Shown: piece by piece, positions 8,709 to 18,880 of the stretch
How the letters are laid out: every line of letters begins with the position of its first letter
Position numbering within the stretch: the stretch's first letter is position 1
Source of the DNA: a virus
Strand: one strand, 5' to 3'
DNA: 64,000 nt
IMG/VR virus record: IMGVR_UViG_3300040856_002888
Location: 53,598-117,597 of that record
Notes under the pieces: model-generated
What the model saw: only the letters and a program-made list of their open reading frames with translations
Told to the model about the DNA's origin: nothing
The model's database searches: none
Made by a program: the position numbers and the translations under genes

Positions 8709-8813
8709 ATGCGTGACGGTAAAAACTTGGCTATTTGGTTATTGTGCATGTTTATTATATACATATTAATTTGGTCAGCAGAAATTGCTTTACACGTACC
8801 TGATCTAAACTAA
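8709..8813 (+). CDS. Single-span membrane micro-protein
   Basis: 34 residues: a charged start (MRDGKN) then one hydrophobic segment (LAIWLLCMFIIYILIW, about residues 7-22) and a short polar tail. It ends just before the tmRNA. The ribosome binding site is weak (GTAAGAG). Could be a holin-like or accessory membrane peptide; no family recognised. Confidence 0.45.
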   Translation: MRDGKNLAIWLLCMFIIYILIWSAEIALHVPDLN

Positions 8814-8814
8814 T

Positions 8815-9124
8815 AACGATGACGCTGAACAAAAGCTGAACTTGGACGCCGGTTCGATTCCGGCCACCTCCACCACACATTTTTCAACATACGGGGGTGT
8901 TCAGGTATTCGACAAGCAGTAAGTAGGGATGCTGAGTTATCCGGAGCAAGCTCGGTTAATGCAAGAAACTTTTATAAGTGCAAACGAAAATTTTGTACCT
9001 GGAGCATTTACTTCATTAGACATGTCAATGGCTAGTGAAGGTGAATTACTCGCAGCCTAATACGTTGTGAACTCCGCGGCATAGTCCACCGGGCAACAGA
9101 ACGGACTATCCCTCCTGCTTTTTT
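8815..9124 (+). ncRNA. ssrA: Circularly permuted (two-piece) tmRNA
   Basis: The acceptor piece comes first: T stem-loop GCCGG-TTCGATT-CCGGC (8848-8864), acceptor strand CACCTCC (8865-8871), discriminator A and encoded CCA (8873-8875). After a short spacer the coding piece begins at 8893 with GGGGGTG, which pairs with all seven acceptor positions (one G-U). The D-like region follows (TTCAGGTATTCGACAAGC). The tag reading frame opens with the resume codon GCA at 8980 and ends with TAA at 9058-9060: 26 residues beginning ANENF and ending ELLAA. A 7-bp hairpin (9081-9087 with 9103-9109) and six Ts (9119-9124) close the gene. The outer 5' limit and the P2 helix are not resolved. Confidence 0.9.
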
Positions 9125-10566: not shown

Positions 10567-11162
10567 TGTTAAAAAAAATAATTTATGCATTAGGCGGAAT
10601 GTTATTGCTTTCCGCTTTTACCAATCCCCAGTCTCTTGGCTCTCCTAATTTAAATGAGCTGTCTAATAAATCATTAAGTGACCTACTTCCAGCTGAAATT
10701 TATACTATCACTGAACCTGAACTAGATTGCCTTGCAAAAAACATTTATCACGAGGCACGCAATGATATGATGGCAGGACAATTTGCAGTGGCAGATGTGG
10801 TTTTAAATCGAGTGCATGACAAGCGATACCCAAATGATATCTGTTCAGTTATATATGAAGGCCCTGTTTACGAATCATGGAAGACTAAACAAACACCAGA
10901 TCCAAACGATGCTGTATTTCATCCTGTAAAAAATAAATGCCAATTTAGTTGGTATTGTGATGGCAAACCAGATGAGATAGACGATCAACAATCTTGGAAA
11001 CAGGCCCAAGCAGTTGCCTATATGTTATTGAGCAGGAATGTAATGCGTGGCATCAGCGAAGGTAGCACCCATTATCATGCTACATATGTATCCCCAAAAT
11101 GGGCCCCTACACTATACCCAATTGGTAGGATTGGAAAGCATCGTTTTTACAAATGGTTGTAA
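10566..11162 (+). CDS. Cell wall hydrolase, SleB family, with signal peptide
   Basis: 198 residues. An N-terminal signal sequence (KKIIYALGGMLLLSAF) is followed from about residue 53 by the SleB/Hydrolase_2 domain: LAKNIYHEARNDMMAGQFAVADVVLNRV contains the likely catalytic Glu, then CSVIYEGP...CQFSWYCDG. Such enzymes cut the glycan strands of peptidoglycan. The signal peptide implies export to the periplasm, as in signal-arrest-release or Sec-exported endolysins. A good candidate for the phage lysin. Confidence 0.85.
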   Translation: MLKKIIYALGGMLLLSAFTNPQSLGSPNLNELSNKSLSDLLPAEIYTITEPELDCLAKNIYHEARNDMMAGQFAVADVVLNRVHDKRYPNDICSVIYEGPVYESWKTKQTPDPNDAVFHPVKNKCQFSWYCDGKPDEIDDQQSWKQAQAVAYMLLSRNVMRGISEGSTHYHATYVSPKWAPTLYPIGRIGKHRFYKWL

Positions 11163-15455: not shown

Positions 15456-16028
15456 ATGGCAATGCATTCGGAGCTTTGGTTTCCTAATGTAATCTGGTCT
15501 GCAATAGTTCATGCGGTTGATAATACTGCAATTAAAAAATGGGCATATGAGAAAAAAAGAAATGATCCTGGCAGACGAGTAAGTAATTATATTGGCTACC
15601 AATCTACTGATATCAAGCAAAAAGAAAATACAGAAATAGATACTTTGATTGACTATGTCAACAAGGAAGTGTATAATTGTTGTGAGCAAGTGGGTTTACC
15701 ACAATGTAAAATTTATAATATATGGTTAAATATAAATCCTCCTGGTGCATATAATACCCTGCATAATCATGCTGGAGCGTTATTTAGTGGTGTCTATTTT
15801 GTAGATGCCACTCCTGACATGGGAAATTTATTATTTGAAAGAGGTGACGGAGCAGAATATTTTTTACCAGACAACCAACAACAGTTAACTTACTATAATT
15901 GTAGTAAAACAATGTATGCCGCCAAAACTAATGCCCTATATATTTTTCCAGGGTGGTTAAAACATTGTGTAGAGGGTAACAAAACAAATCAGGATAGGAT
16001 TAGTTTATCATTTAATTATGGTATTTAA
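15456..16028 (+). CDS. 2OG-Fe(II) oxygenase superfamily protein
   Basis: 190 residues. The double-stranded beta-helix fold shows NPPGAYNTLHNHAGALFSGVYFVD (about residues 88-111), where a His supplies a metal ligand, and a distal FPGWLKHCVEGN ... RISLSFNYGI with the second His and the Arg that binds 2-oxoglutarate. This form is common in T4-like cyanophages and pelagiphages. Substrate unknown. SD AGAGGC upstream. Confidence 0.82.
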   Translation: MAMHSELWFPNVIWSAIVHAVDNTAIKKWAYEKKRNDPGRRVSNYIGYQSTDIKQKENTEIDTLIDYVNKEVYNCCEQVGLPQCKIYNIWLNINPPGAYNTLHNHAGALFSGVYFVDATPDMGNLLFERGDGAEYFLPDNQQQLTYYNCSKTMYAAKTNALYIFPGWLKHCVEGNKTNQDRISLSFNYGI

Positions 16029-16036
16029 AAATTTTT

Positions 16037-16105
16037 TATAAATAGTTTTATAGCAGATGCCAATGGTGGGTCTGCTATAGATCTTGCTTAATTAAGGAGA
16101 AAAAA
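16037..16105 (+). promoter_or_regulatory. Late-type promoter and structured leader of dnaK
   Basis: TATAAATA at 16037-16044 is a perfect T4 late consensus. A hairpin follows: 16049-16057 pairs with 16071-16079 (9 bp), enclosing TGCCAATGGTGGG in which CCA (16060-16062) can pair with TGG (16067-16069). Then come ATCTTGCTTA and AAGGAGAAAAAAATG. The leader of hsp20 (17997-18061) has the same motif order, the same loop and the same 3' segment but a stem of different sequence that still pairs. The covariation indicates a functional RNA structure. Function unknown; regulation by temperature or stress is a guess. Confidence 0.7.
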
Positions 16106-17986
16106 ATGGCAAAAGTAATCGGCATTGATCTCGGTACCACTAATAGTTGTATTGCCGTATTAGAGAACAAACAACAAAAAATCATCGAAAACGCAGACGG
16201 TGGAAGAACAACCCCGAGCATTGTGGCATACAAGGACGATGAAATCCTAGTCGGAACAAGTGCAAAACGACAGGCAGTCACTAATCCAAAAAACACCCTA
16301 TTTGCTGTTAAAAGATTGATAGGTAGGAAACACAGTGACAAAGAAATACAAAAAGACATTAAAAAATTACCTTACGAAGTTGTTGCATCTGCAAATGGAG
16401 ATGCATGGGTACGTGCCAATGGAAAAGACCTTGCTCCACAGCAGGTATCGGCAGAAATTCTTAGAAAAATTAAAGAATATGCCGAAAGCTATTTAGGCGA
16501 AACTGTTACACAAGCTGTAATTACAGTGCCTGCATACTTTAACGACAGTCAACGACAGGCTACTAAAGATGCTGGTAAGATCGCCGGACTAGAAGTATTA
16601 CGCATTATTAACGAGCCTACTGCTGCTGCACTTGCATATGGTGTAGATAAAGACAGCAAGAAAGATATGAAGATTGCTGTATATGATCTAGGTGGTGGTA
16701 CATTTGATATTTCAATTATTGAGATTGCAGATGTAGACGGCGAAAAGCAATTTGAAGTACTTAGCACAAATGGTGATACATTTTTAGGCGGTGAAGATTT
16801 TGACCAAGCTATCCTAGATTATCTAGTTGCAGAATTTAAAAAATCAGATGGTGTAGATCTCAGCACAGATAAAATGGCACTACAGAGATTGAAAGAATCT
16901 GCAGAGAAAGCAAAGATTGAACTTTCAACTAATACACAAACAGAAGTTAATTTGCCATTTATTACTGCAACAACTGACGGTCCTAAGCACCTCATTGTAA
17001 AACTTACACGAGCAAATTACGAAGCAATGGTAGAAAAGTTGATTACAAGGTCAATTAACCCTTGCAAAATCGCTCTAAAAGATGCTAAACTACAAGCAGG
17101 AGATATTGATGAAATCATCCTTGTAGGTGGACAAACACGTATGCCAGCGGTACAAGCAGCAGTAGAAAAATTCTTTGGAAAAGCTCCACGTAAAGATGTC
17201 AACCCAGACGAAGCTGTAGCAGCAGGTGCCGCTATCCAAGGTAGTGTGCTTGCAGGTGATACAACAGATGTACTACTTTTAGATGTAACACCACTTAGCT
17301 TAGGTATTGAAACAATGGGTGGAGTAATGACAAAGCTGATTGAAAAGAATACTACTATTCCAAGTAAAAAGTCGCAGATTTTTTCAACAGCAGAAGATAA
17401 TCAACCTGCTGTAACTATTGTTGTAGCACAAGGAGAACGTGAATTTGTACGTGATAATAAGATGCTTGGCACATTTAATTTAGATGGCATTACACCTGCA
17501 CCGAGAGGATTGCCACAGATTGAAGTAACATTTGATATTGATGCAAATGGTATCCTAAGTGTAAGTGCTACAGATAAGGCAACTGGCAAAGAACAAGCTA
17601 TTACAATTAAGGATTCAAGTGGTCTGAGCGACGAAGAAGTAGAAAAAATGATTAAGGATGCAGAAGAGAACGCAGAAAAGGATAAGGCACAGAGAGAGCT
17701 AGTAGATACACGTAATTCTGCAGAAGCTGCTGTCCATACATATCAGAAAGACTTTGACGAAGTTAAAGACGATCTTACTGAAGACGAACGTACAAAGTTT
17801 GAAACTGCTGTAACAGAGCTACAAGAGTCTATTAAAGGTGAAGACAAAGAAGATATGACTGCAAAAGTAACTGCATTACATGAAGCAGTTGCTCCAGTAT
17901 TTGCTGCAAAGCAGAAAAAGACAGAAGCAACAACAGAAACAAATGATGACAATGTTGTTGAAGGAGAAGTTACTGAAGCTGCTTAA
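16106..17986 (+). CDS. dnaK: Molecular chaperone DnaK (Hsp70)
   Basis: 626 residues, a complete Hsp70. The ATPase domain begins [32 protein letters not shown] lies near residue 192 and [14 protein letters not shown] near 336. The linker [16 protein letters not shown] leads into the substrate-binding domain, then the helical lid and an acidic C-terminus ([13 protein letters not shown]). Both halves and the EEVD-like end look intact. No dnaJ or grpE is seen in the window, so host co-chaperones would be used. Strong AAGGAG ribosome binding site; the structured leader is shared with hsp20. Confidence 0.97.
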
Positions 17987-17996
17987 TTGAGTTTTT

Positions 17997-18061
17997 GGTA
18001 AATAACAGTGGATGCCGATGGTCGGGTCCACTACTAATCTTGCTTATTAAAGGAGAAAAAA
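17997..18061 (+). promoter_or_regulatory. Structured leader of hsp20, second copy of the dnaK leader element
   Basis: GGTAAATA (17998-18005 region) precedes a hairpin AGTGGA (18007-18012) with TCCACT (18027-18032), enclosing TGCCGATGGTCGGG in which CCGA (18015-18018) pairs with TCGG (18022-18025). Then follow AATCTTGCTTA and AAGGAGAAAAAAATG. Compared with the dnaK leader, the outer stem differs in sequence but keeps pairing, and the inner CC-GG helix keeps pairing with a different second pair. Confidence 0.7.
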
Positions 18062-18523
18062 ATGACAAGACTAACTACTCTCGACTTACCTTCATATTAC
18101 AAAGCTACAATTGGATTTGATAAAATATTTGACGAATTAGAAAGAACTTTTGCTAATAGTCAAAGTAATTCCTATCCTCCATACAATATCGCAAAACTAG
18201 ACGATAATGAATTTGTTATCAGTTTAGCAGTAGCAGGGTTTACTATGGATGATCTAGAAATCACTAAAGAATCTAATGTGCTCCGTATTGAGGGATCATC
18301 GCCTAAAAGCGAAGACAAAGTGAATTACATCCATAAAGGTATTGGCTCTAGGAACTTTAGGAGAGAATTTGCTCTTGCAGATTATGTTGAAGTTATAGAA
18401 GCTAGACTTTCTGTAGGTATGCTAAACATTCGTTTACGCAGAGAAATTCCCGAAGCATTGCAGCCTAAAAAGATTGCAATTACTGCAGGAGAAGATTTCA
18501 CTATCAAATATAACGAAGAGTAA
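18062..18523 (+). CDS. Small heat-shock protein Hsp20 (IbpA-like)
   Basis: 153 residues. The N-terminal YYKATIGFDKIFDELERTF is the IbpA-type start. The alpha-crystallin domain runs from about residue 40 to 140 (PYNIAKLDDNEFVISLAVAGF, then FRREFALADYVEVIEARLSVGMLNIRL). It holds unfolding proteins for refolding by DnaK. Hsp20 genes are common in T4-like cyanophages. It follows dnaK and shares its leader element, so the two are probably co-expressed. Confidence 0.94.
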   Translation: MTRLTTLDLPSYYKATIGFDKIFDELERTFANSQSNSYPPYNIAKLDDNEFVISLAVAGFTMDDLEITKESNVLRIEGSSPKSEDKVNYIHKGIGSRNFRREFALADYVEVIEARLSVGMLNIRLRREIPEALQPKKIAITAGEDFTIKYNEE

Positions 18524-18568: not shown

Positions 18569-18880
18569 ATGACTACAGAAACAATTGAAGAAATCATAAT
18601 TGACGAAAAAATCAAACATAGCATCGAAGAACCTGGTAAGTGGAGTGTAATTTTTTTAAATGACGATCAAACCCCAATGGATTTTGTAACAGAACTGTTG
18701 ATAATTATTTTTAAACATTCAAAAGAAACTGCCGAACAAATTATGTTAACTGTTCATGAAAAAGGCAGTGCAGTTGTTGGTACCTATACATTTGAAATTG
18801 CAGAACAAAAAACTACAGAAGCGACCCTTTGTGCCCGTCAACAAGGATTTCCACTAGGAATACAAATGGAAAGGGCTTGA
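18569..18880 (+). CDS. clpS: ATP-dependent Clp protease adaptor ClpS
   Basis: 103 residues. The ClpS signature is clear: WSVIFLNDDQTPMDFVTELLIIIF, then a helix region, VHEKGSAVVGTYTFEIAEQKT and a C-terminal ATLCARQQGFPLGIQME. ClpS binds N-degron substrates and hands them to ClpAP. With ClpP (25226) in the same phage, it could redirect host proteolysis. SD AAGGAAA upstream; ho1 follows one base after the stop. Confidence 0.94.
   Translation: MTTETIEEIIIDEKIKHSIEEPGKWSVIFLNDDQTPMDFVTELLIIIFKHSKETAEQIMLTVHEKGSAVVGTYTFEIAEQKTTEATLCARQQGFPLGIQMERA

Follow-up and report, generated by a model that had tools for sequence, protein, structure and literature searches.

The window, by which we mean the whole 64 kb stretch of DNA that was analysed (part of a 117.6 kb virus record), carries dnaK and hsp20 one after the other, each behind a short leader built from the same parts. 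Features are listed below; the basis of each assignment is given in brackets where one applies.

16037-16044, plus strand: TATAAATA of the dnaK leader, T4-late-type promoter or -10-like element (sequence); TAAATA lies within it at 16039-16044.
16049-16079, plus strand: predicted hairpin I of the dnaK leader, with bulged G16059 and a UGC/GG module (fold, ROSE_3 match, pair counts in homologues).
16081-16090, plus strand: ATCTTGCTTA of the dnaK leader.
16082-16100, plus strand: predicted hairpin II of the dnaK leader, anti-Shine-Dalgarno (anti-SD) UCUUGCUU with bulged G16086, paired with the SD AAGGAGA (fold, ROSE_3 match, pair counts).
16094-16099, plus strand: AAGGAG of the dnaK leader; ATG at 16106.
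16106-17986, plus strand: dnaK (Hsp70, 626 aa), putative regulated gene (Pfam PF00012, E 2e-259).
17999-18004, plus strand: TAAATA of the hsp20 leader, promoter-like element (sequence).
18007-18032, plus strand: predicted hairpin I of the hsp20 leader, with bulged G18014 and a UGC/GG module (fold, ROSE_3 match, pair counts).
18037-18046, plus strand: ATCTTGCTTA of the hsp20 leader.
18038-18056, plus strand: predicted hairpin II of the hsp20 leader, anti-SD UCUUGCUU with bulged G18042, paired with the SD AAGGAGA (fold, ROSE_3 match, pair counts).
18050-18055, plus strand: AAGGAG of the hsp20 leader; ATG at 18062.
18062-18523, plus strand: hsp20 (small heat shock protein, 153 aa), putative regulated gene (Pfam PF00011, E 4e-15; phrog_432).

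Next after dnaK and hsp20 comes a ClpS adaptor gene (18569-18880), so that the phage has a small proteostasis cluster. A permuted tmRNA gene is present at 8731-9110 of the window (Rfam tmRNA_permuted, 88.4 bits at 8813-9060; alpha_tmRNA, 52.2 bits); it is absent from the ARAGORN output, and a relative (L111, 158-404) has a permuted tmRNA too.

The order common to both leaders, as described in an initial annotation of this DNA, is borne out by the sequence: TAAATA, hairpin I, TGCCAATGGTGGG or TGCCGATGGTCGGG, ATCTTGCTTA, AAGGAG, ATG. So are the stem changes that it pointed out: the outer stem differs between dnaK (GCAGA/TCTGC) and hsp20 (GTGGA/TCCAC) with pairing kept, and the inner stem is also changed (CCA/UGG in dnaK, CCGA/UCGG in hsp20). 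Exact copies of ATCTTGCTTA number two in the window, both in these leaders; exact matches to the loop pattern, and later those to a covariance model, fall in the same two places only.

The folded element with both hairpins spans 16049-16100 (dnaK) and 18007-18056 (hsp20). Its predicted fold was equalled by none of 200 shuffles for dnaK (z -3.6) and by 3 of 200 for hsp20 (z -2.6), and comprises in both leaders hairpin I, which is stable, and hairpin II, which is weak. In the latter, UCUU-G-CUU is predicted to pair against AAG-GAGA with one bulged G left over; ATCTTGCTTA is regarded as an anti-SD because of this pairing. The initial annotation had recognised hairpin I and the conserved blocks, which stand, and had missed this second hairpin, formed by ATCTTGCTTA and the SD, which is taken to be the functional core of the element.

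Covariation and relationship to the ROSE family

Covariation was assessed on an alignment (A5) of 76 distinct rows, which was fitted to the model and therefore favours the structure, and whose rows are not independent events. Standard pairs make up 96.0% of its cells (42-60% with partners slid), and two-sided compensatory changes are seen at 14 of 18 pairs: 9 of 11 in helix I, and 5 of 7 in helix II, the SD hairpin, where 93.7% of cells are paired. The covariation score is 0.468 (0.145 in shuffles; 0 of 500 shuffles as high), and the slid controls and raw leaders agree with A5. Among 63 rows with complete 5-nt arms, 40 different arms occur and 58 rows are fully paired. One group of leaders (L156, L163, L167, L168, L185, L186, L196, L206) has the SD hairpin extended by TTATTC/GAATAA outer pairs that are absent from the seed model.

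Of 76 rows, 74 have either UGC/GG or CGC/GG as the core of hairpin II, and 75 have G at the position of the bulged base in the anti-SD strand (bulged according to secondary structure prediction). The same module, a Y.G or C-G pair, a bulged G, and a C-G pair, is found in hairpin I in at least 59 rows, and in more if alignment slips are allowed. As the YGC/GG module is present in both hairpins, the ROSE core seems to appear twice per element; no mention of such a doubled module was found in the sections consulted of the Pseudomonas ROSE paper (PMC3669281). The hairpin I loop varies across phages (UUCG, GAAA, GUAA, UAAC, or longer), and only its YGC/GG module, common to bacterial ROSE, is conserved; the loops UUCG, GAAA, GUAA, and UAAC are those of cyanophages of several genera.

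The initial annotation knew of no named family for the element. At the Rfam gathering threshold no family matched it, and megablast against phages gave no matches. A permissive Rfam scan (15950-18100), on the other hand, ranked ROSE_3 (RF02523) first and second, covering both copies in full (positions 1-69 of 69): 16051-16111 in the dnaK leader (32.2 bits, E 3.2e-4) and 18006-18067 in the hsp20 leader (28.8 bits, E 2.3e-3), both below the gathering cut-off of 43 bits. The family is therefore a named one, with the copies under its threshold. ROSE_3 scores of 26.8-36.3 bits were obtained for seven leaders from six other phage records, including cyanophage MED4-213 and phage C48C1. In the permissive scan, the matches listed for the window leaders included neither ROSE nor ROSE_2, and a match to Freshwater-2 RNA (20.4 bits, E 3.8) was rejected as chance. 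From its consensus, and in agreement with the Pseudomonas loci matched here, we infer that ROSE_3 represents the short two-hairpin thermometer of Pseudomonas ibpA.

In the reverse direction, a covariance model (R1) was built from nine viral leaders only (the window hsp20 leader and eight contigs), on length-matched rows because MAFFT alignments misplaced the anti-SD. R1 found 21 of 21 Pseudomonas ibpA leaders (E 2e-6 to 0.02), including those of P. putida, P. stutzeri, and P. syringae, whose thermometers are experimentally functional (PMC3669281); on non-Pseudomonas contrast loci it gave partial hairpin I matches only (E about 0.03 or more). Across 299 evenly drawn Pseudomonadota genomes, six matches passed, four of them ahead of hsp20/ibpA, in a whole-genome search of low sensitivity: run over the complete P. 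putida genome, it missed the copy there. A bacterial pattern scan for the hairpin I core and SD returned mostly Pseudomonas ibpA leaders (core GATGCCGA..TCGGGTC) and one alphaproteobacterial hsp20 (L275).

The phage leaders share with the Pseudomonas ibpA short ROSE (RF02523, ROSE_3; Krajewski et al. 2013, PMC3669281) the two-hairpin layout, a nearly identical hairpin I core (GAUGCCGA..UCGGGUC in Pseudomonas), U(U/C)GCU with a bulged G opposite the SD, and the position directly before a small heat shock gene; the covariance models detect each other. The hallmark of ROSE thermometers is a U(U/C)GCU motif that faces the SD and has a bulged G (PMC3669281 and PMC11182007), and UUGCU lies opposite the SD at 16084-16088 and 18040-18044. 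Unlike the Pseudomonas elements, those described here are phage-borne, score under the Rfam cut-off, have a hairpin II weaker by about 3 kcal/mol, and also stand before dnaK and, in other phages, before other chaperone loci. Pseudomonas ibpA is moreover sigma32-dependent, whereas the phage leaders, judged by sequence, have sigma70- or T4-late-like boxes at the place expected for the promoter. The rhizobial and enterobacterial elements ROSE and ROSE_2 (hsp20/ibpA) have the U(U/C)GCU:SD thermosensing hairpin and the heat shock gene in common with the phage leaders, and differ in having three or four hairpins instead of two (PMC3669281).

Occurrence in phages, target genes, and promoter boxes

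The loop pattern was found in at least 119 stretches of viral contigs; at least 108 places have pairing flanks, in which at least 15 different 5-bp stems occur; almost all of these places precede hsp20. With these places and the strong covariation over 76 distinct rows, the initial proposal of a functional, covarying RNA of chaperone genes holds: further copies are many, and the stems are kept in homologues. As selection on the element itself was to be avoided, 80 viral Hsp20 genes were collected by protein similarity, of which 72 were searched (eight near-duplicates were left out). The model matched upstream of hsp20 in 69 of the 72 loci, where matches below about 20 bits are individually weak yet lie at the expected place; one further locus (L162) was positive by eye, and in two hsp20 leaders (L155, L172) the element was absent both by model and by eye. 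The hsp20 of Vibrio phage PWH3a-P1 is without the element. Campylobacter phage A11a (L120, MG065691.1), with a ROSE_2 match, was set aside, as the record is unverified and its hsp20 reads as E. coli ibpA; ibpA and ROSE_2 in this record are probably contamination.

Searched whole, 22 of 24 phage records gave matches, one to three each and mostly before hsp20 or dnaK. The target is hsp20 in nearly all phage records with matches; dnaK is a target in the window and in the viral contigs L223, L225, L226/227/228/231, L232, and L233; records of this kind often have another copy in front of hsp20. In L119 (194-700) and L068 (minus strand, near 10679-10735), the element lies in a short leader ahead of groES-groEL (Cpn10 match); in both, it is followed by a conserved 8-codon ORF (MSKHIYVT or MSKHTYLT), a promoter-like sequence, and then groES-groEL. 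Two phages (L259, L262) have it before a phasin-like protein of 74-80 aa (Pfam Phasin_2, E 0.034, below cut-off). An exception is formed by four contigs (L001, L008, L051, L094), in which an element with altered anti-SD (CUACUUU) precedes a 93-aa acidic protein (phrog_13789) beside a clamp-loader-like gene; this target, without known chaperone link, counts against reading the element as a thermometer of chaperone genes. In Marine virus AG-345-E02 (L129), the ROSE-type leader of hsp20 is preceded, at a distance of about 500 bases, by a strong manA RNA (181 bits, 700-897).

Within a few bases upstream of hairpin I, 63 of 79 elements have TAAATA or a TATAAT with up to one mismatch (12% at random places), and some elements have TTGACA 17 bases further upstream; copies such as L011 have no adjacent promoter box. 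Since the boxes sit just upstream of the hairpin, transcription probably starts at the base of this stem, and the motifs suggest promoters of the sigma70 or T4 late type.

Proposed control of translation and alternative explanations

Translational control by masking of the SD fits best, because ATCTTGCTTA is an anti-SD with the ROSE signature U(U/C)GCU. We consider it quite probable that both leaders belong to the short, two-hairpin ROSE type of Pseudomonas ibpA and are carried by phages, being opened most simply by heat. Hairpin I would form a stable stem about where the transcript should begin, and hairpin II would pair U(U/C)GCUU, with one bulged G, to the Shine-Dalgarno sequence. Closed, hairpin II would keep ribosomes from starting on dnaK or hsp20; opened, most simply by a rise in temperature, it would allow both chaperones to be translated. 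In the cell, the SD would thus be hidden, on a transcript that would begin near hairpin I, with temperature as the presumed trigger and probably governing the masking. In the Pseudomonas short ROSE, hairpin I remains folded and hairpin II melts (PMC3669281); the phage leaders would respond to temperature in a comparable way.

The median energy of hairpin II at 37 °C is -1.7 kcal/mol in phages and -4.75 kcal/mol in Pseudomonas; a set point at lower temperature, or assistance by Hsp20, is therefore possible. The window copies have -4.1 kcal/mol at 20 °C and -4.8 at 15 °C, and come to -4 to -5 only at 15-20 °C, which makes a set point for cool water plausible. For the dnaK leader with some coding sequence, ViennaRNA gave an unpaired probability of GGAG of 0.08 (5 °C), 0.50 (20 °C), and 0.83 (37 °C); for the hsp20 leader with some coding sequence, the SD was open at every temperature. 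The dnaK profile is thus that of a thermometer, closed in the cold and opening on warming. The open hsp20 SD, the weak hairpin II, and the scores under the ROSE_3 cut-off count against the ROSE reading. As the same calculation gave no heat opening for the ROSE controls of P. putida, P. stutzeri, P. syringae, and E. coli, such whole-leader melting is not decisive.

Help from Hsp20 leads to a different explanation, which we regard as possible though unlikely: the leaders may be feedback operators, with free Hsp20 binding the ROSE-type hairpins and blocking hsp20 and dnaK translation, and translation resuming once Hsp20 is occupied by proteins that are unfolded or being assembled. Temperature would have little weight here, yet feedback is compatible with temperature sensing. 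It would account for the leader common to dnaK and hsp20, for the YGC/GG repeat in hairpin I, and for a hairpin II too weak alone. In E. coli, IbpA binds the 5' UTR of its own mRNA and so represses translation; it also suppresses IbpB, and this activity requires R93 and an aromatic residue at 34 (PMC10474464). The window Hsp20 has both, and among 86 phage Hsp20 proteins all have Y or F at 34 and 70 have R at 93; the others have K (15), which E. coli IbpA does not tolerate, or S (1). R93 discriminates little for autoregulation, since conserved positive residues are found at this position in human small Hsps as well (PMC10474464). A broader version, which we hold to be doubtful, is that large aquatic phages may possess their own chaperone regulon (hsp20, dnaK, and sometimes groES-groEL) with shared ROSE-type leaders, in which SD hairpins too weak alone would be held shut by Hsp20, with the YGC/GG of hairpin I as a second binding site, so that output would track how much folding virion assembly demands, either instead of temperature or in addition to it.

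That hairpin I merely stabilises the mRNA 5' end, with the second conserved block a translation enhancer and not an anti-SD, seems improbable to us. The promoter boxes of the 63 elements, immediately upstream, would place hairpin I at the RNA 5' end, and Krajewski et al. propose a stabilising role for the Pseudomonas hairpin I (PMC3669281); left unexplained, however, are the covarying SD hairpin, the strict UYGCU with bulged G, box-less copies such as L011, and the mostly chaperone targets. A site for protein binding, ligand binding, or processing, as initially suggested, does not give the best account if placed at hairpin I, given the ROSE signature in the anti-SD ATCTTGCTTA. A ligand-binding riboswitch or processing site of a new class could draw on the conserved hairpin I core and the covarying stem, but is very improbable: across phages the hairpin I loop is not conserved, the module that is kept belongs to bacterial ROSE too, and neither a competing terminator nor another fold came to light. 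ROSE-type masking of the SD, probably under temperature control, remains our preferred explanation.

Known phage thermosensors and significance

The lambda cIII mRNA thermosensor is likewise a phage leader, in which folding makes translation depend on temperature; it has two alternative folds, serves a lysogeny gene, and is unrelated in sequence to the phage ROSE-type leaders. To our knowledge, a ROSE-type element such as that on nearly every phage small heat shock gene examined here has not been reported before. Phage-carried RNA thermometers of the fourU type are described for blyA of SPbeta and the sigma70 gene of a gut Caudoviricetes (PMC11182007); they differ from the present leaders in class (four U opposite the SD) and in genes, and the anti-SD of the window leaders is UCUUGCUU, not four consecutive U. 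Our literature search, which covered freely accessible published papers, found ROSE elements in bacteria only and, as phage thermometers, those of the fourU type. It found no description of cyanophage hsp20 regulation, although hsp20 is a core gene of T4-like cyanophages (PMC3037559). The Rfam-based surveys of cyanophage RNAs that were consulted list wcaG, manA, glnA, and PhotoRC-II only; ROSE is expected to be missing from them because the copies fall under the cut-off.

The design is the same as that of short ROSE, and priority for the phage finding is not certain. What appears to be new here, from the sequences, is ROSE in phages, its place on dnaK and behind sigma70 or late-type promoter boxes, the weaker SD hairpin, and the wider range of targets. 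If this is correct, ROSE-type elements would be standard in abundant aquatic phages and would reach dnaK besides hsp20, and the many natural variants would form a data set for the tuning of ROSE hairpins, and the scope of Rfam ROSE_3 could be extended. For infection under warming or heat stress, the elements would then provide a concrete, testable switch.
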